Below, piece by piece: positions 5,002 through 11,558 of a stretch of DNA of 64,000 nt. The stretch comes from Bacillus sp. 7884-1 (lineage in GTDB: Bacteria; Bacillota; Bacilli; Bacillales; Cytobacillaceae). The notes under the pieces are model-generated. The model was not told the origin of the DNA. It made no database searches and was given only the letters and a program-made list of their open reading frames with translations. The stretch's first letter is position 1. The number at the start of each line of letters is the position of its first letter. The stretch spans positions 1 to 64,000 of the forward strand of contig NZ_NPDD01000167.1 in the NCBI RefSeq assembly GCF_002272245.1. Reading direction: 5' to 3'. The position numbers and the translations under genes are program-made.

Positions 5002-5068
5002 GACCAAGGGGACGGTTCTAGCGGTCCTTTTTGTTTAACTTGTCCCATGAGAACCGTCCCTATGGACA
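5002..5068. repeat. REP-like palindromic element, full copy
   Basis: Two inverted modules: GGGACGGTTCT on the left and AGAACCGTCCC on the right, each flanked by GACC/GGTCC-type ends and joined by a T-rich spacer. Near-identical full copies lie at 8643 and 14653, half copies at 5306, 11592, 12199 and 16497, and degenerate copies at 13186 and 20232. The layout resembles the REP/BIME elements mobilised by RAYT (Y1) transposases. No such transposase is encoded in the window. Confidence 0.75.
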
Positions 5069-5278: not shown

Positions 5279-5305
5279 TATTTAGTGCCTCGCAACGGGG
5301 ACCGT

Positions 5306-5330
5306 GACCGTGGGGACGGTTCTGGTGGCT
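5306..5330. repeat. REP-like half copy
   Basis: GACCGTGGGGACGGTTCTGG followed by TGGC matches one module of the full element at 5002. It sits right after the broken ORF ending at 5278. Confidence 0.65.
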
Positions 5331-5415
5331 TTTTTATAATTATTAGTGTCGTAGCTAAGATGAAGAAGCTAATCCAATTTGAATTTGTTCAGAAGTAGAT
5401 TCAAGAAAACAAAAA

Positions 5416-5449: not shown

Positions 5450-5509
5450 CTCACAAATAATCTGCATTTAAAACAACAAGCAATAAGATTATTGCTAGGC
5501 AAAAGTTAA

Positions 5510-5677
5510 TCATTCTGGATTTGAACAAACAAAAATATCAGCATCAGGGTCTAATGTTAAAACTTCCTCGGCGTCAATACTCTCAATTGTTACTTTAGTT
5601 GTTTCCCATACATTACTGCATCCCGTAATTGTAAATAAAAATAATGCAATCAATGAATAGAATAACTTCCGAAACAA
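5510..5677 (-). CDS. small putative lipoprotein, 55 aa
   Basis: A TTG start at 5677 follows a GGGGGGAG ribosome site. The protein opens with a charged residue pair (FRK), then a hydrophobic stretch ending in the lipobox FTITGC (Cys20), and continues with an acidic tail rich in Glu and Asp. It should be exported and anchored by its lipidated cysteine. It lies 77 bp downstream of another lipoprotein gene on the same strand, so the two are probably co-transcribed and end at the hairpin at 5416. Function unknown. Confidence 0.6.
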   Translation of the reverse strand: MFRKLFYSLIALFLFTITGCSNVWETTKVTIESIDAEEVLTLDPDADIFVCSNPE

Positions 5678-5754
5678 CCTACTCCCCCCTTTTTAAGCTA
5701 ATAGACGGATAAAATCTATCAAAAATTCCTTATTCTACTCTCTAGGTCAAATCA

Positions 5755-6189
5755 TTATTTTAAGTCTGATAATTTTTCTCCCGTAATAATTTCGTATAGG
5801 ACTGCCGATTTTTCTTTATCTAATTGAGCATATTTACTTTCAGCTTCTATAACAAGTTCTACTTTTTCCTTATTTGGGCTTATCCAGAGCTCATACAACA
5901 CTGCTTTCGCTTCAATGTTAGGATTTTTGTATTGAAATCCAAACCTGTAATCAGGAGGGCGTATCATAGACACTTTTGCATTTTCCCAATCAATATATGA
6001 TAAAATCTCTTTCACTTTTTTAACTTGCTCATTATTATTAATTTCTTTAAAGTCCTCATAATGATTTTCATTCACCATATACTTTTGGACTTCTATCCTT
6101 TGTTTCCCATCTTTTAAATCATTTGAACAACCTGCTAAAAATATAAATATCATTCCAATAGTGACCATTAATTTTCTGTATTGTTTCAA
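5755..6189 (-). CDS. putative lipoprotein, 144 aa
   Basis: The N-terminus MKQYRKLMVTIGMIFIFLAG followed by Cys21 is a classic lipoprotein signal with a LAGC lipobox. The rest (about 120 aa) is hydrophilic, with mixed beta-prone and charged segments. It resembles the small Bacillus lipoproteins of unknown role that carry a region like DWENAKVSMIRPPDYRF, but I cannot assign a family. The gene ends 77 bp before the smaller lipoprotein gene and probably heads a two-gene transcript. Confidence 0.75.
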   Translation of the reverse strand: MKQYRKLMVTIGMIFIFLAGCSNDLKDGKQRIEVQKYMVNENHYEDFKEINNNEQVKKVKEILSYIDWENAKVSMIRPPDYRFGFQYKNPNIEAKAVLYELWISPNKEKVELVIEAESKYAQLDKEKSAVLYEIITGEKLSDLK

Positions 6190-6358
6190 GTGAATCCACC
6201 CCTTTTATTATAGGACGAATTGTTTTAGGTAAAGTTTCGACGTGTACCATCATAAAACATTCTTCGACCAACCTGTTAACTGGCTAGCCCTCTGGTTCCT
6301 GCGAACACCAAAGTATCTTAAAGTCTTTTTTCATTAAAAGCCCTTAGCATAAAGAAGA

Positions 6359-6384
6359 GCTCGATTCTTACTGTAGAATCGAGC
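6359..6384. terminator. terminator downstream of the MFS gene
   Basis: GCTCGATTCT and AGAATCGAGC form a perfect 10-bp stem with a 6-nt loop. A T-rich tract follows on the plus strand (CTGTTTTT) and a weaker one on the minus strand. It lies 30 bp past the end of the MFS gene. Confidence 0.65.
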
Positions 6385-6413
6385 CTGTTTTTGAATAACT
6401 TTTCATCATAAAG

Positions 6414-7730
6414 CTATGATAAGTTCGTTCTACTTGCTGTAACTTCCTTTTTAACATGAAGGGTCTGATTCTTTTCCTTCGCTTCTGATACCCATTTATC
6501 AAGTGATAAATAAATAATACCGGCAAAGATACAACCTATTCCTAGAACAGTAAAAAGAACCTGACCAAGATGTTCATCAAGCAAAAAACCTGCAAAAATG
6601 GGACCGAATGCACTGCCAACGATCCACTGAAGACTTGCTGCCCCCATATAGGTACCACGTAAATGTTCAGGTGCAATATTCGCTACAAATGTCATTTGTA
6701 CCGGGGATAAGAGCATTTCCCCTAATGTGTATATTCCATAGATAATGATAAGAATTAAAAGGATACTCCAATAGGAAAACTGGAGCTTTGTAAAAAAGAT
6801 TGGCAGCCATCCTACTGAAAGCAGCCCAAAACCAAATAAAACCGAACCATATAGCATGACCTTTCCAAGTTTGCGCTTACTTGCCCATTTCGATATCGCA
6901 AATTGGAAGAAAACGACCAGTGCACCGTTAAAAGCCATTAAATAAGGATATGGATTTTGGGCATCGGAAAGTGCCGGCAATTGTTGATCAAAATGCAGTG
7001 GCAGCATCCCTTCCGTTTGTGAGAATCCCATTGAAATAACAATTCCCGTGATAATATAGAAAAATAAAATTTTATCTTTGACGAGCACCGTAAATATAGA
7101 TGGCAGTTTCTCTTCTTTATCAAGATCTTTCGTATCCTTTTTTCGTTCATTTTTCGGAAGTGTTTCTGTAAGCAAGAGCGCTAAAAATAGAGAATAAATA
7201 AAAACGGATGAAGCAGCAATGATAAAAATAACTGACTTTGATAAAAACACAACGGATGCTCCAAGTAATGGACCGATTGCTGCTCCAATATTGTGTCCCA
7301 TTCGAAGCAGCCCAAATGCTTCCGTTCTTCCTTCTTCATCCGTCACATCAGCGACCATGGCTGATGCCGCAGGATGAAAAAGAGAATTAAACAAACCGAA
7401 AAAACTCGATATCAATAAGAAAGGATAGAAACCATCGAAAAAAATAAAACCAAGCATAACCAATCCATTTCCAACCATTGAAACAATCATAATAGGTTTC
7501 CTGCCATATTGATCCGCAAGCTTTCCACCTATTAATGAACCAAGCACTCCTGCAAGTGGTCCCATCGCCATCACAACACCAACTTGCCAAAAATGATCCA
7601 CCTTATCACTCATATATAAGGCGAAAAAGGGCATTAACATCATCATCGCAATACCATTAATCGATTCGCCGATAAAACGAATCCAAATATTACGATCCAT
7701 GTTTCGAAAGGCATGTAAACTCATTTTCAT
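6414..7730 (-). CDS. MFS multidrug exporter (DHA1-like), attenuator controlled
   Basis: A 438-aa, 12-helix major facilitator. Motif A appears as GGKLADQYGRKP between helices 2 and 3. The C half shows the repeated helix pattern, and the C-terminus is cytosolic and charged. Family members export drugs in exchange for protons. An upstream extension of the open frame to 7817 exists, but its first residues are encoded by a terminator hairpin. The ATG at 7730 has a good AGGAAAAAG ribosome site and is the likely start. The gene is preceded by a 40-codon leader ORF and a strong terminator, the arrangement used for ribosome-mediated induction of antibiotic-resistance genes. Substrate unknown. Confidence 0.85.
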   Translation of the reverse strand: MKMSLHAFRNMDRNIWIRFIGESINGIAMMMLMPFFALYMSDKVDHFWQVGVVMAMGPLAGVLGSLIGGKLADQYGRKPIMIVSMVGNGLVMLGFIFFDGFYPFLLISSFFGLFNSLFHPAASAMVADVTDEEGRTEAFGLLRMGHNIGAAIGPLLGASVVFLSKSVIFIIAASSVFIYSLFLALLLTETLPKNERKKDTKDLDKEEKLPSIFTVLVKDKILFFYIITGIVISMGFSQTEGMLPLHFDQQLPALSDAQNPYPYLMAFNGALVVFFQFAISKWASKRKLGKVMLYGSVLFGFGLLSVGWLPIFFTKLQFSYWSILLILIIIYGIYTLGEMLLSPVQMTFVANIAPEHLRGTYMGAASLQWIVGSAFGPIFAGFLLDEHLGQVLFTVLGIGCIFAGIIYLSLDKWVSEAKEKNQTLHVKKEVTASRTNLS

Positions 7731-7780
7731 TTCTTTTTCCTCATTTCTCTTTGACTGAAAGATTATACTTTTACCAGAAC

Positions 7781-7815
7781 AAAAAAGCCGTGAGCAAGTT
7801 AAACCCGCCCACGGC
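7781..7815 (-). terminator. leader terminator (candidate attenuator) before the MFS gene
   Basis: On the minus strand GCCGTGGGC pairs with GCTCACGGC (9 bp, one G-U), with an 11-nt loop, followed by TTTTTTG. It lies between the leader ORF stop (7851) and the MFS start (7730), so it would abort transcription before the exporter. Part of the leader ORF (GGGAGCA) can pair with the terminator's 3' arm (TGCTC), offering an antiterminator. Confidence 0.8.
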
Positions 7816-7850
7816 ATTTTAATTAAAATGAAAGAATGGGTAAGGAAAAC

Positions 7851-7973
7851 TTATGGTTGAACAATCGTTTTATAGTTAAAAAAGGGCACACTGCTCCCGT
7901 TAGACATAAGTACATATTTGGTGGAACATACTTCTACTATCCAATTAACCTTAAAACGTAAACCAGTAAGCAT
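7851..7973 (-). CDS. leader peptide, 40 aa, upstream of the MFS exporter
   Basis: ATG 7973 follows a textbook GGAGGTG ribosome site and opens a 40-codon ORF, MLTGLRFKVNWIVEVCSTKY and on to IVQP. It ends 36 bp before the terminator hairpin at 7815-7781. No domain is recognisable. Its position between a good promoter and a terminator that precedes a drug exporter is that of regulatory leader peptides. In known cases (erm genes, bmrB-bmrCD and similar) antibiotic-stalled ribosomes on the leader ORF change RNA folding and permit read-through. The same role is inferred here. Confidence 0.65.
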   Translation of the reverse strand: MLTGLRFKVNWIVEVCSTKYVLMSNGSSVPFFNYKTIVQP

Positions 7974-8028
7974 TTCCTTACACCTCCTATTCCTGAAATT
8001 TTTTAAATTATCTTAATTATCCATAAGA

Positions 8029-8058
8029 ATTATAATTTATTATTAACATGCATGTAAA
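8029..8058 (-). promoter_or_regulatory. promoter of the leader peptide-MFS unit
   Basis: TTTACA (8058-8053) and TATAAT (8034-8029) are spaced 18 bp apart on the minus strand. Transcription would start near 8022, about 50 nt before the leader ORF and about 290 nt before the MFS start. The rest of the 300-bp gap to the divergent gene at 8275 shows nothing further that I can support. Confidence 0.6.
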
Positions 8059-8274
8059 GAAATTCCTTAAAGAAAAATAAAGAACTTTAAGTAAGCTATT
8101 AGGACAGTCCTCTCAAGTAAAAATGGCTGCCTTTTCATATACCCTTCTCTAATGAGGATAAAGCCTGCTTCCTAAATATAGTGAGTAAAACTAATTCAAC
8201 TGGGTAGTATATGTTTAGGATGATTTACGTTCATATTTAGCATTTTTCCTATCAATCAATGAGGAAGTGAATAG

Positions 8275-8577
8275 ATGAAACACAGTAACGAACAAAATAA
8301 CTTTGATGGAAATGTAGAAGAAAGTGGTAACAACCTAGCTGGTAGTGATGCTAATCAGGATACCAGTGACTTTGGTGAAAGTAAAACAGCAGGAACTTTA
8401 ACTGATGCCGTTGCGGGTGCTATGATAGGTGCTCCATTTGGACTATTTGGTGCTGTTATAGGCGGTGTTACGGGCGGTGTTATTGGTAACCAGATGGTGG
8501 AGACTGCTGATGCAGATAACAATATAGCTTCCAATAATCGTGATGTGAGCAATAATACTAACTCTATAAATGAGTAG
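8275..8577 (+). CDS. glycine-zipper protein, 100 aa
   Basis: ATG 8275 follows GAGGAAGTG. The protein has a hydrophilic Asn/Asp/Glu/Ser-rich N-terminus (1-38), a central hydrophobic glycine-zipper segment (about 39-75, with repeated GxxxG-type spacing such as GAMIGAPFGLFGAVIGG), and a polar C-terminus rich in Asn and Asp. Glycine zippers pack helices in membranes or form oligomers. There is no cleavable signal. Short proteins of this shape are widespread in spore-formers with no assigned role. It stands alone between divergent neighbours. Confidence 0.7.
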   Translation: MKHSNEQNNFDGNVEESGNNLAGSDANQDTSDFGESKTAGTLTDAVAGAMIGAPFGLFGAVIGGVTGGVIGNQMVETADADNNIASNNRDVSNNTNSINE

Positions 8578-8642
8578 CTATTTTTCAAGGATTCCAATTA
8601 ATTTAACTAGGGAATGGAAATTTTCCTTTAACCACAGAGACA

Positions 8643-8710
8643 AAACCGTGGGGACGGTTCTCGCGGTCCTTTTTGTCTAACTTGTACCATGAGAACCGTC
8701 CCTCTGGACA
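8643..8710. repeat. REP-like palindromic element, full copy
   Basis: Nearly the same sequence as the 5002 copy over its whole length, including the spacer CTTTTTGT.TAACTTGT.CC. Such identity between copies 3.6 kb apart implies recent spread or gene conversion. Confidence 0.75.
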
Positions 8711-8751
8711 TTTACTTCTCCACCATTACTCCTCAGATTATTGTGAAATCC

Positions 8752-8793
8752 AAAAAAAAAACGTTCCTTACAAAATGCAAGGAACGTTTTTTT
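8752..8793. terminator. bidirectional terminator
   Basis: ACGTTCCTT and AAGGAACGT form a 9-bp stem flanked by nine A on the left and a run of T on the right. It closes the minus-strand DHA2 exporter gene and could also end plus-strand transcription from 8275. Confidence 0.8.
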
Positions 8794-8830
8794 CTGTTGA
8801 TAAGTCTTTTATCATTGGATACCTAAGCCA

Positions 8831-10273
8831 TTACTCCTGAAGTTTTACTCGTACATTTCTTTGCCTTTTTCCATCTTCCACACCCTCTGCCTGGCGGTTA
8901 TGCTTAATGAAAAAGGAGAGAATCAGTCCTATTAAGGAAAGAATGGAAACGACCATAAAGGCGATATTCGCTCCGTGTATATCCGGATAGGCAATGTCCG
9001 GGCGCTGTTTTGCTGTTTCCGCTGTTGTTGTCATAACTGTAACAAGGATGGCGGTTCCTACCGAAGCGGCAATCATTTTCATCGTATTATCCATCGCCGC
9101 CCCATGAGGAATTAATCGTTTTGGTAACTGATTCAAAGCAGCTGTTGCGACCGGCATCATTACCATGGAAAGACCAAACATTCGAATCCCATAGAGGACA
9201 GTAATATATGTCAACGTGGTCGACGGACTTAAAGTCATAAACGCAAATGAAGCAGCAGTCATGATGGTTAATCCAATCATCACGAGCCATCTTGCACCGA
9301 CTTTATCAAATATTCTTCCAACAATTGGTGACATAATCCCGCTAATCAGTGCACCAGGTAATAAAGCAAGCCCCGCCTCAAAGGCAGAAAACTCCCTCAT
9401 ATTCTGCATAAAGAGCGGAATGATTGTTTCTGCTCCAATTAAGCCCATAAAGCTGATCATTCCAATTGCTACGGCAAAAGGGAATATTGAAAACGTAAAA
9501 ACACGAAATTCCAGCATCGGATGTTTCAGTCTTATTTGGCGGAAAATAAATACAATCAGTGATACACCACCAATTGTGAGTGATAGTAAGGTTGCAGCAT
9601 GAGACCAACCGTAATTTCCAGCACTCGTAAATCCATAAAGCAGCCCGCCAAAACCGAATGACGATAGTAGGATCGAAATGACATCCACTTTTGGCTTGGA
9701 AACCTCTGTGACATTTTTCAAGAAAAAGAATGCGACAACAATATCGATAAGAGCAATAGGCAAAATAATATAAAATAACACTCTCCATGAAAATTGCGAT
9801 GTCACCCATCCAGACAATGCTGGTCCGATGGCTGGTGCAAAGGATATCACAAGCCCGACAAGACCCATTGCTGCACCGCGCTTATTGACCGGGAAGATCA
9901 GTAAAAATACGGTTGTCATTAATGGCAGCATGACTCCCGCTCCCACAGACTGAATGACTCTACCTATTAGAAGAATTTCAAAATTAGGAGCGATCCCACT
10001 GACAACCGTTCCTAAAGCAAAAACACTCATGGCAGAGATAAATAACTGTCTTGTGGTAAATTTTTCTAATAAAAAGGCACTGATTGGAATCATGATCCCA
10101 TTCACCAACATAAAGACGGTGGTCAGCCATTGTGCACTATTTGCGGTAACGCTCATTTCATCCATAATTGGAGGAATTGCTGTTATCATCAGCGTTTGAT
10201 TCAAAATCGCGATAAAGGCCCCTGCTAGCAAAAGGCCCACGATCAATGATTGCTTACTCCCTAAACTCTCCAT
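8831..10273 (-). CDS. MFS drug exporter, DHA2 (EmrB/QacA) family
   Basis: 480 aa with about 14 predicted membrane helices, the DHA2 topology. The N-terminal helix carries LNQTLMITAIPPIMDEM, close to the family's motif D1 with its conserved start of helix 1. The motif C region in helix 5 reads GLVISFAPAIGPALSGW. Such proteins expel lipophilic drugs by proton antiport. By length and sequence feel it is similar to the LmrB-type lincomycin exporters of Bacillus, but I do not assign the symbol. The start ATG follows GGGGAG. No TetR regulator gene adjoins. Confidence 0.9.
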   Translation of the reverse strand: MESLGSKQSLIVGLLLAGAFIAILNQTLMITAIPPIMDEMSVTANSAQWLTTVFMLVNGIMIPISAFLLEKFTTRQLFISAMSVFALGTVVSGIAPNFEILLIGRVIQSVGAGVMLPLMTTVFLLIFPVNKRGAAMGLVGLVISFAPAIGPALSGWVTSQFSWRVLFYIILPIALIDIVVAFFFLKNVTEVSKPKVDVISILLSSFGFGGLLYGFTSAGNYGWSHAATLLSLTIGGVSLIVFIFRQIRLKHPMLEFRVFTFSIFPFAVAIGMISFMGLIGAETIIPLFMQNMREFSAFEAGLALLPGALISGIMSPIVGRIFDKVGARWLVMIGLTIMTAASFAFMTLSPSTTLTYITVLYGIRMFGLSMVMMPVATAALNQLPKRLIPHGAAMDNTMKMIAASVGTAILVTVMTTTAETAKQRPDIAYPDIHGANIAFMVVSILSLIGLILSFFIKHNRQAEGVEDGKRQRNVRVKLQE

Positions 10274-10355: not shown

Positions 10356-11558
10356 CTATAGGTTATTTACTCTAGCTTCAAAGTATTTAAATTTAACCAT
10401 GGAAATGATTCCAATGATCGGACCGATGCTTAATAGGATAAAAACAAATCTCCATCCTAACCATGTTTGAAAGATTGGAATTAGGTTTATTGACAAGATT
10501 GTAATTAGAAAACCTATACACATTTGCAAGGTAAGGGCCGTCCCGATATAGTCCGCTTCTGCAAACTCTGTAATACCAACAGAAAATTGTGCAGAATCCG
10601 CAATGACCGACACTCCCCAGATAATGGAAACAAGAACCGTCAGCCAAATGAACCCACCAAAAGTAAAACCAATCAATATCGCACAAATAGCGCTAACCGA
10701 CATACAAATAATCGTTAAATTTGCCCTTCCTATCTTATCCGCCGCTATCCCACCTGCTATGCACCCTATTCCCCCCGCAATTCCAATAGCGGAAAAAGAA
10801 GCTAACATACTTAGCCATGGGTCTAAATTTGGTGCGGACCGCAAAAAACTTGCAGATAAAAAAACTGGTAGCCAAGTCCACATGGCGTATAACTCCCACA
10901 TATGTCCAAAATAACCATAATTCACTAACATGACTGGTTTATTCTTTAGTAACTTTCCAAATACGGAAAAAGACCAAGAACTATTTTTAGAAACCAATCG
11001 AATATCAGGTAATAGATAGAAAATAAAAATAGCTGCTATCATTGCTAATGTCGAACTAATTGTGAGTACCCATCGACTATCCATATTAATTGTGAAAATG
11101 GATATAAAGTGCGGCAATGAGGAGCCTAATGTTAAAGCAGCGATTAAAATGCCTGTTGCCAATCCTCGTTGTTTTGGAAACCAGTGTGCAATCATTTTTA
11201 CTGAAGTTGGATATACACCCGCTAACGTTACACCAGTCAATATTCTCAATAATATACCAATCGCTGCCTGATCAACGATAATCAAGACCCCATTTAGGAA
11301 CGCACCCGACAGCGCTGAGATAGCAAACAACCTTCTAATATTAAAACGATCCGATACCCCAAAATATGAACTTAAAAATGCACCAATCACAAATCCAATG
11401 GGAATGGCTGCGGACAGCAATGCGCCTTGGGGCGGGGTTAGACTCCAGCTTTTTTCTAGTTCGGAGGCAATAACGGAGGCATTAAACCACAGACTTAAAC
11501 AAAAAATGACTGCTATTCCAATAATCGTTAACGCCAGCCAACGATTCTTTATCATCAT
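10356..11558 (-). CDS. MFS transporter, 400 aa
   Basis: A 12-helix major facilitator. The N-terminus WLALTIIGIAVIFCLSLWFN and the RFNIRRLF loop between helices 2 and 3 are typical of the anion/cyanate/nitrate-type MFS branch rather than classical drug exporters. Helix 4-5 carries GVTLAGVYPTSVKMIAHWFP, with a conserved Arg just before it in LLRILTG. The ribosome site GGGAGGAC precedes a tandem ATG ATG start. An independent transcript is likely, as 82 bp separate it from the DHA2 gene. Substrate unknown. Confidence 0.85.
   Translation of the reverse strand: MMIKNRWLALTIIGIAVIFCLSLWFNASVIASELEKSWSLTPPQGALLSAAIPIGFVIGAFLSSYFGVSDRFNIRRLFAISALSGAFLNGVLIIVDQAAIGILLRILTGVTLAGVYPTSVKMIAHWFPKQRGLATGILIAALTLGSSLPHFISIFTINMDSRWVLTISSTLAMIAAIFIFYLLPDIRLVSKNSSWSFSVFGKLLKNKPVMLVNYGYFGHMWELYAMWTWLPVFLSASFLRSAPNLDPWLSMLASFSAIGIAGGIGCIAGGIAADKIGRANLTIICMSVSAICAILIGFTFGGFIWLTVLVSIIWGVSVIADSAQFSVGITEFAEADYIGTALTLQMCIGFLITILSINLIPIFQTWLGWRFVFILLSIGPIIGIISMVKFKYFEARVNNL

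Follow-up and report, generated by a model that had tools for sequence, protein, structure and literature searches.

An attenuator-like leader ahead of an MFS exporter gene in Bacillus sp. 7884-1 carries a motif common to many resistance leaders

In Bacillus sp. 7884-1, an MFS exporter-like gene on the reverse strand of contig NZ_NPDD01000167.1 (positions 1 to 64,000, the whole stretch of 64,000 nucleotides (nt) analysed and here called the window) is preceded by a short leader open reading frame (ORF) and an intrinsic terminator. This attenuator-like leader is real and conserved. We read it as a device for ribosome-mediated transcription attenuation that includes a programmed pause of RNA polymerase, comparable to the leaders of vmlR and tlrB in Bacillus subtilis, and assign this reading a probability of about 0.72. 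Its parts are observed in the sequence and in relatives, together with compensatory changes in a hairpin, a predicted RNA switch and a wide family of loci sharing one motif. The main interest of the leader lies in this motif, which is common to many resistance leaders.

The leader, its conservation and the predicted switch

The leader and the exporter gene consist of the following parts, where SD stands for Shine-Dalgarno sequence and A2 for an alignment of 13 sequences described below.

8029..8058, reverse strand: sigma-A-type promoter TTTACA-18-TATAAT with 11/12 consensus matches (-35 TTTACA at 8058-8053, spacer 18, -10 TATAAT at 8034-8029)
7981..7987, reverse strand: GGAGGTG, SD of the leader ORF; in A2 most of its letters never vary or are conserved to 90% or more
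7945..7988, reverse strand: 5' arm of the leader hairpin (SD, start codon and first ~9 codons), putative anti-antiterminator
7851..7973, reverse strand: leader ORF from the ORF list, 40 codons plus stop, MLTGLRFKVNWIVEVCSTKYVLMSNGSSVPFFNYKTIVQP, its frame maintained across indels
7878..7898, reverse strand: GGGAGCAGTGTGCCCTTTTTT, the window's copy of the shared motif; hairpin and NusG-type T-tract (TTNTTT) at which RNA polymerase may pause
7833..7879, reverse strand: 3' arm of the leader hairpin
7849-7833, reverse strand: TTTTCCTTACCCATTCT, post-stop part of the 3' arm, also candidate antiterminator strand
7787..7815, reverse strand: intrinsic terminator of 13 base pairs with a loop of 3, 9/13 pairs invariant in A2
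about 7812-7803, reverse strand: 5' arm of the terminator, candidate partner of the antiterminator strand
7781..7786, reverse strand: T-run of the terminator, six T
6414..7730, reverse strand: MFS exporter-like gene, ATG at 7730, 438 amino acids (aa), Pfam MFS_1 with 199 bits

The initial annotation, made from this sequence, had placed the promoter, the 40-codon ORF with its SD and the exporter start exactly here. Its terminator with six T was likewise recovered, with a stem of 13 pairs, two of them G-U, instead of the nine that had been given. The promoter ranks best among 10 promoter-like sites in 5500-9500, a number not above that of shuffled sequences (13.8 expected). The exporter reached no NCBIfam cut-off among the 25 models shown. 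No Rfam family was matched at its gathering score in the window, and 7600-8300 gave three matches, all far below their gathering scores.

A search of 200 relatives for exporter orthologues returned 11 same-genus genomes at 90-96% identity and 8 same-order genomes at 52-67%. Among the genomes with an exporter at 90-96%, nine have named records, under the labels Neobacillus or Bacillus sp.; we regard the window's genome as Neobacillus niacini-like and its source as a soil Neobacillus. A search for conserved leaders ahead of homologous exporters had been suggested at the outset, and leader and terminator were indeed kept in 9 of the 11 same-genus orthologues (locus handles begin with L, genome handles with G). 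The -10 element is visible in all nine and the -35 element in eight, that of L002 lying outside the stretch shown; in L009 the leader ORF is reduced to 15 codons. The remaining two loci, L005 and L007, are without a leader and with a leader mostly lost, respectively. Leader and terminator also occur in a same-species genome (L065) and in Fictibacillus gelatini (L039, 84%).

Leader DNA was matched in 12 of 61 genus genomes, counting the own genome, the same-species genome and the partial matches in G004 and G015. One full copy is present in the own genome, next to five further weak matches with an expect value (E) > 0.2, and no plasmid matched the window's leader. G038 holds a second full copy (L073, 809-1435 on the reverse strand, G038:C50) ahead of an unrelated S-adenosylmethionine (SAM) methyltransferase gene; its ORF carries an indel that is not a multiple of three, runs in a shifted frame and stops within the loop of the terminator. 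A mobile inverted repeat resembling a miniature inverted-repeat transposable element was considered and rejected, with only one full copy in the own genome and two in G038 ahead of different genes.

Every indel within the ORF of an exporter-linked leader has a length divisible by three (L003, L008 twice, L009 net, L011, L039). Over ten leaders, leaving out L009 and L011, whose exporters carry an in-frame TAA, the ratio of nonsynonymous to synonymous changes (pN/pS) was 0.92, giving little sign of selection on the exact peptide. ORF lengths span 15 to 41 codons.

The SD and start region together with the first codons pairs with the last codons and the segment directly after the stop codon. In A2, a structure of 51 pairs (38 in the hairpin, 13 in the terminator) has 96.4% of its cells paired and a covariation score of 0.105, compared with 38-54% and 0.017-0.060 for structures slid by 1-3 columns. 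Five pairs show changes on both sides, a number reached by 6 of 500 shuffles (shuffled mean 1.6). The structure was derived from the same 13 sequences, so that the test favours it.

To describe the predicted switch, RNA up to the 5' arm of the terminator was folded for 12 leaders (L009 was not used), either free or with the ribosome-covered part removed. In free RNA, the maximal pair probability between the post-stop arm and the terminator 5' arm was 0.0-0.03 in 12/12 leaders. With a ribosome at codon 5, it was at least 0.74 in eight of them (L001, L065, L002, L003, L004, L006, L008, L010). The mean over the arm in the window's leader was 0.06 free versus 0.80 stalled; linker shuffles gave means of 0.28 and 0.49, and 6 of 200 were equally switch-like. 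The candidate antiterminator pairing joins CCUUACCC with GUGGGC of the terminator 5' arm. The idea of ribosome-controlled transcription attenuation, already put forward in the initial annotation, is supported: leader frame and terminator are conserved, the RNA pairings predicted in silico exclude each other, and leaders of this kind also precede genes known to confer resistance to ribosome-targeting drugs.

A motif common to many resistance leaders

At the apex of its hairpin the window carries GGGAGCAGTGTGCCC-TTTTTT, which fits the pattern GGGANNAGTNTGNCCNTTTT exactly. This pattern was searched without mismatch, with the reversed pattern as control. In the order, it was found in 94 of 397 genomes at 106 sites (reversed pattern 6), and in the class in 87 of 398 genomes, 38 of which were also part of the order search (reversed pattern 5). 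As only exact matches are taken and variants such as GGGGGGAGTCTGTCC in L142 are missed, these counts are lower bounds. A description of the motif was not found in the open-licence papers searched.

All 106 order sites were read. For each site the first ORF reaching 110 aa in the 700 nt downstream was taken as its gene, and these ORFs were clustered by BLAST. For 95 sites the gene could be assigned: 50 ABC-F, 17 MFS, 8 RibD, 7 RlmA-like, 5 SAM methyltransferases, 4 Mph, 3 Cfr and 1 HflX. A Pfam run covering 101 of the 102 downstream ORFs is in line with this (ABC_tran 50, MFS_1 17, RibD_C 8, RlmA zinc ribbon 7, APH 4), and the 12 ORFs matching Methyltransf_25 are the 7 RlmA-like proteins and the 5 SAM methyltransferases. 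NCBIfam was run on ten proteins, nine from motif sites and that of L139. Ribosomal-protection ABC-F, Cfr and HflX scored above the curated cut-off; Msr (a cut ORF), Mef, Mph and the G745/G748 methylases scored below it, and two proteins, which Pfam calls MFS_1 and methyltransferase, had no match at the threshold used. Of the 11 sites outside these classes, four have leaders of the same types (L163, L220, L194, L210), and the other seven (L166, L183, L198, L205, L217, L237, L240) about equal the reversed-pattern count. The L205 site precedes a nitroreductase-family gene, probably by chance.

Among 18 new loci read from the class search, 11 precede ABC-F genes, 3 MFS genes, 1 an Mph gene (by BLAST) and 3 other genes. 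Motif leaders were seen ahead of a small RidA-like protein (L260, L261) and a phosphotransferase-like ORF (L252), labelled by eye. On plasmids, the exact motif lies in the annotated leader of ErmD (Bacillus licheniformis, L323), in the annotated Mef(F)/Msr(G) leaders of two plasmids (Macrococcoides canis, Lysinibacillus capsici) and ahead of a putative RNA methyltransferase and Msr in Priestia megaterium.

Positions left unfixed by the pattern are constrained as well. Among the 95 assigned sites, 94 have T or C at position 13, in keeping with a GGG/YCC stem; T at position 21 and A at position 22 are each present in 85, and 83 have A at -1. TTNTTT directly follows NCC in 70 of them, four of the T being demanded by the pattern itself. 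A terminator-like hairpin with a T-run was found downstream of the motif in 95/95 sites versus 49/285 with shuffled flanks, and at a stricter energy (-15) in 77/95 versus 2/285. Sequences on the two sides of the motif can pair with each other in ABC-F, L134-type MFS, methyltransferase and Cfr sites, with a mean flank pairing of -42.8 versus -32.3 shuffled for the 50 ABC-F sites. The same test was negative for RlmA-like (-23.8 versus -26.0) and HflX sites, and hardly any complementarity was seen in RibD sites.

In 40 of the 106 sites the motif lies in frame inside an SD-led upstream ORF (uORF). Same-letter codons in these 40 uORFs were dropped as a sign of nucleic-acid constraint, since the search pattern had fixed those letters. 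Because the motif is also found downstream of RLR-type leaders or behind flavin mononucleotide (FMN) aptamers, it is not explained by the peptide. RLR-type leaders matched 22 plasmid records, four of which were inspected.

An Rfam FMN match accompanies each of the eight RibD sites; the distance from the end of the aptamer to the motif is about 25 nt in six of them and nearly 50 nt in L169 and L171. Twenty further FMN loci were fetched, the gene behind most of them being unconfirmed; of the 19 readable ones, seven carry the motif at 20-26 nt with at most 3 mismatches (0/100 shuffles) and 12 are without it. Among the first 30 FMN loci returned, mostly ribU/fmnP-like by eye, 30/30 stood at 4 or more mismatches. 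Taken together, an exact motif or one with 1-3 mismatches lies behind FMN aptamers, with ribD where the gene is visible, in L169, L171, L196, L197, L199-L202, L304, L307, L309, L311, L312, L317 and L322.

A covariance model of the leader (R1) was used for family and order searches; it matched 44 of 193 family genomes at E up to 0.1 and 58 of 397 order genomes, many of the matches weak. Stronger matches include eight Neobacillus loci (L137-L144) ahead of an ABC-F gene, for which the ORF was seen in L137 and L139 and the same gene start in the others where visible, thirteen loci (L109-L121) ahead of ORFs labelled ABC-F-like by eye, an MFS gene (L134) and others. A form of GGGA..AGT.TG.CC with a T-run, exact or varied, lies at the hairpin apex of these leaders, and its reading frame differs in some of them. 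In 8/8 Neobacillus ABC-F leaders, the terminator arm was paired upstream at 0-0.08 free and 0.72-0.80 stalled.

The ABC-F uORFs share CRAIFH at codons about 18-23 (L137-L144, L165, L175, L179, L181, L187, L191, L208, L209, L213, L215). In the eight Neobacillus leaders, pN/pS was 0.25 over the whole, 0.04 for codons 9-16 and 0.14 for codons 17-24; in 11 more diverse ABC-F leaders it was 0.73 overall and 0.25 around CRAIFH. Judged from these ratios, the Neobacillus peptides look to be under selection and resemble a drug-dependent arrest peptide. No plasmid matched the Neobacillus ABC-F leader. ABC-F leaders with other, very short uORFs have been described (PMC10201436). Leaders of a second MFS family (L163, L164, L216, L219-L224) have in common an MSIFGISAVLG-like stretch and end one codon past the motif (pN/pS 0.53).

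The tlrB, vmlR and ribD leaders of B. subtilis each contain a NusG-dependent pause that buys time for leader translation or FMN binding; a hairpin lies 11-12 nt upstream of the RNA end and TTNTTT at -11 to -6 (PMC12288461, PMC6851288, PMC9226507, each cited in part). The window has this layout, with hairpin GGGAGCAGTGTGCCC followed by TTTTTT. By analogy, the motif itself may cause pausing. We give even odds to the broader proposal that GGGANNAGTNTGYCC plus a T-run is a portable, sequence-specific polymerase pause signal in Bacilli, serving ribosome-drug attenuators (ABC-F, MFS, 23S ribosomal RNA (rRNA) methylases, Cfr, Mph, HflX) and the ribD FMN riboswitch. Such a signal would be the added element by which NusG TTNTTT sites pause strongly, and it would tag genes responding to ribosome-targeting drugs genome-wide, the window's exporter among them. 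The motif marks resistance-type leaders across the sampled class genomes, including those of genes of unknown role such as the window's exporter and several SAM methyltransferases. It would allow resistance genes that stay silent unless induced to be catalogued from the sequence only, and a single observation becomes a testable leader family.

Less probable, yet the strongest competitor, is an attenuator that is real and whose motif is no pause signal, the motif being instead the site of a trans-acting protein, another RNA device or a structural piece of the apex. The loop letters (A-N-N-AGU-N-UG) do exceed the needs of a 3-bp GGG/YCC stem, TTNTTT does not directly follow in every site, and known pause elements consist of a T-rich motif and a hairpin, with no conserved loop in the part of the source cited (PMC12288461). 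Against this speaks the presence of the motif both in leader-peptide attenuators and behind FMN aptamers, two settings that are NusG-paused in B. subtilis (PMC12288461, cited in part).

Proposed mechanism and alternatives

Attenuation with a programmed pause would work as follows. Without drug, the polymerase would reach GGGAGCAGTGTGCCC-TTTTTT and pause, which would let a ribosome load on the strong leader SD before the hairpin closes over it. The ribosome would then read the leader and depart, and the SD and start region would pair with the post-stop segment; with this segment occupied, the 13-bp terminator would form and the exporter would not be transcribed. In the presence of a ribosome-targeting drug, the presumed inducer, a ribosome stalled early on the leader (codons 1-15 were modelled) would occupy the 5' arm of the hairpin. 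The free post-stop segment CCUUACCCA could then capture the nascent terminator 5' arm GUGGGC(A/G)GG, and transcription would proceed into the exporter gene, whose product may export the inducer.

Several findings weigh against this scheme. With the ribosome at codon 5, the probability of the antiterminator pairing was at most 0.09 in L012, L039, L073 and L011; for L039 and L011 other ribosome positions give 0.94. Moving the ribosome to codon 20 lowers the value to about 0.1 in L002 and L008. The antiterminator duplex, at about -7 to -9.5 kcal/mol, is weaker than the terminator at -21 to -23 kcal/mol and can therefore win only kinetically, so that timing must decide. In L109-L121 the contrast is weaker (0-0.34 free versus 0.39-0.87 stalled), and the pairing partner is often not the post-stop arm. 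Sliding the A2 structure by -3 columns gives 6 double-changed pairs, exceeding the 5 observed, and the double-change count alone is thus not decisive. In 26 more distant exporter homologues (L013-L020, L040, L041, L043-L058), no motif with fewer than 4 mismatches was found in the 500 nt upstream, and the T-tract behind the motif is interrupted in L004, L006, L008 and L010. With a pN/pS of 0.92 and CSTKY in the window's leader where relatives carry RSITY, a specific arrest peptide is unlikely, and for the exporter leaders it was rejected. Finally, equilibrium folding left the exporter SD (first six bases) more paired when stalled (0.87-0.98) than free (0.36-0.70); on this ground we also rejected translational control of this SD, and the erm comparison drawn in the initial annotation is not backed.

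Some of these points would also be expected of a decaying attenuator, in which an ancestral leader answered to drug and the exporter is now expressed at a low constant level or uncontrolled, the leader being its remnant. The pN/pS value, the four interrupted T-tracts, the absence or near loss of the leader ahead of L005 and L007, and the lost or damaged motifs of L009 and L011 all fit such decay. We nevertheless hold it improbable, as leader and terminator persist in most same-genus orthologues, the hairpin is 96.4% paired with compensatory changes, and motif and T-tract of the window match the pattern exactly. Even less credit is due to the view that the leader ORF simply encodes a small protein and is followed by a terminator of its own, the exporter being transcribed from elsewhere. 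The strength of the SD and of the terminator right after the ORF would be in keeping with such a gene. The pN/pS value, the variable ORF length, a hairpin spanning both ORF ends, the same motif and layout around unrelated leader ORFs ahead of other resistance genes, and the lack of any promoter-like site detected by signal scan between terminator and exporter speak against it. The antiterminator first proposed, a pairing of GGGAGCA in the leader with TGCTC in the terminator, is wrong to near certainty: five complementary bases are present in the window, yet the predicted probability is 0.0 in free RNA and in four ribosome-stalled states, the GAGCA letters vary (GATCA in L039, GAGTA in L010, changed in L011 and L073, deleted in L009), and GGGAGCAGTGTGCCC is more readily understood as one instance of a motif common to many leaders with differing terminators.

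In the surroundings of the locus, the next gene upstream on the exporter strand (8831-10273, reverse strand) encodes a DHA2-type MFS exporter near LmrB (TIGR00711 370 bits, above cut-off; LmrB model 368 bits, below cut-off), and a third MFS-like gene lies at 10356-11558. The window also contains a dispersed repeat with two 66-nt copies 91% alike and a partial third (5003-5068, 5304-5335, 8645-8710); the copy at 8645 scores terminator-like.

Comparison with known systems

The ermD/ermK-type leader of Bacillus licheniformis works by transcription attenuation. This leader (MTHSMRLRFPTLNQ) carries the exact motif (L323) and differs from that of the window in its leader ORF, which is located upstream of the motif and does not extend across it, and in its RLR arrest motif.

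The systems that follow are compared on the portions of the papers cited. Mef(E)/mel of Streptococcus pneumoniae likewise has leader-peptide transcription attenuation ahead of an efflux gene, but with a short MTASMRLR leader and induction by macrolides (PMC4335068). In bmrB-bmrCD of B. subtilis, a leader ORF with alternative stem-loops precedes a multidrug exporter, protein-synthesis antibiotics induce and leader translation is required; there the exporter is of the ABC type, the terminator lies inside the leader coding region and AbrB exerts control (PMC4191407).

In tlrB (yxjB), encoding a 23S rRNA methylase of B. subtilis, the polymerase pauses in a NusG-dependent way long enough for a ribosome to begin the leader peptide, and a stalled ribosome prevents termination, as in the scheme proposed for the window. 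It differs in its 9-aa leader with an RYR arrest motif, of which the window's leader has no counterpart, and in a sequestered target SD (PMC6851288). The vmlR leader of B. subtilis, ahead of an ABC-F gene, has a uORF of 3 codons (MIN) with stalling at initiation, compared with 40 codons and an MFS exporter in the window, and a conserved motif in the pause position, as seen in the window, is not described for vmlR in the portion cited (PMC9226507). Common to both, for the window as predicted or candidate parts, are a uORF inside the anti-antiterminator hairpin and a TTNTTT pause hairpin ahead of the terminator, together with antiterminator, terminator and resistance gene (PMC9226507).

The motif as such has the layout of the B. 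subtilis NusG pauses, a hairpin followed by a T-tract, and in the window it sits between the two arms of the SD-covering hairpin. It recurs in RlmA/TlrB-like leaders, in ABC-F leaders and behind FMN aptamers, the counterparts of tlrB, vmlR and ribD in B. subtilis.

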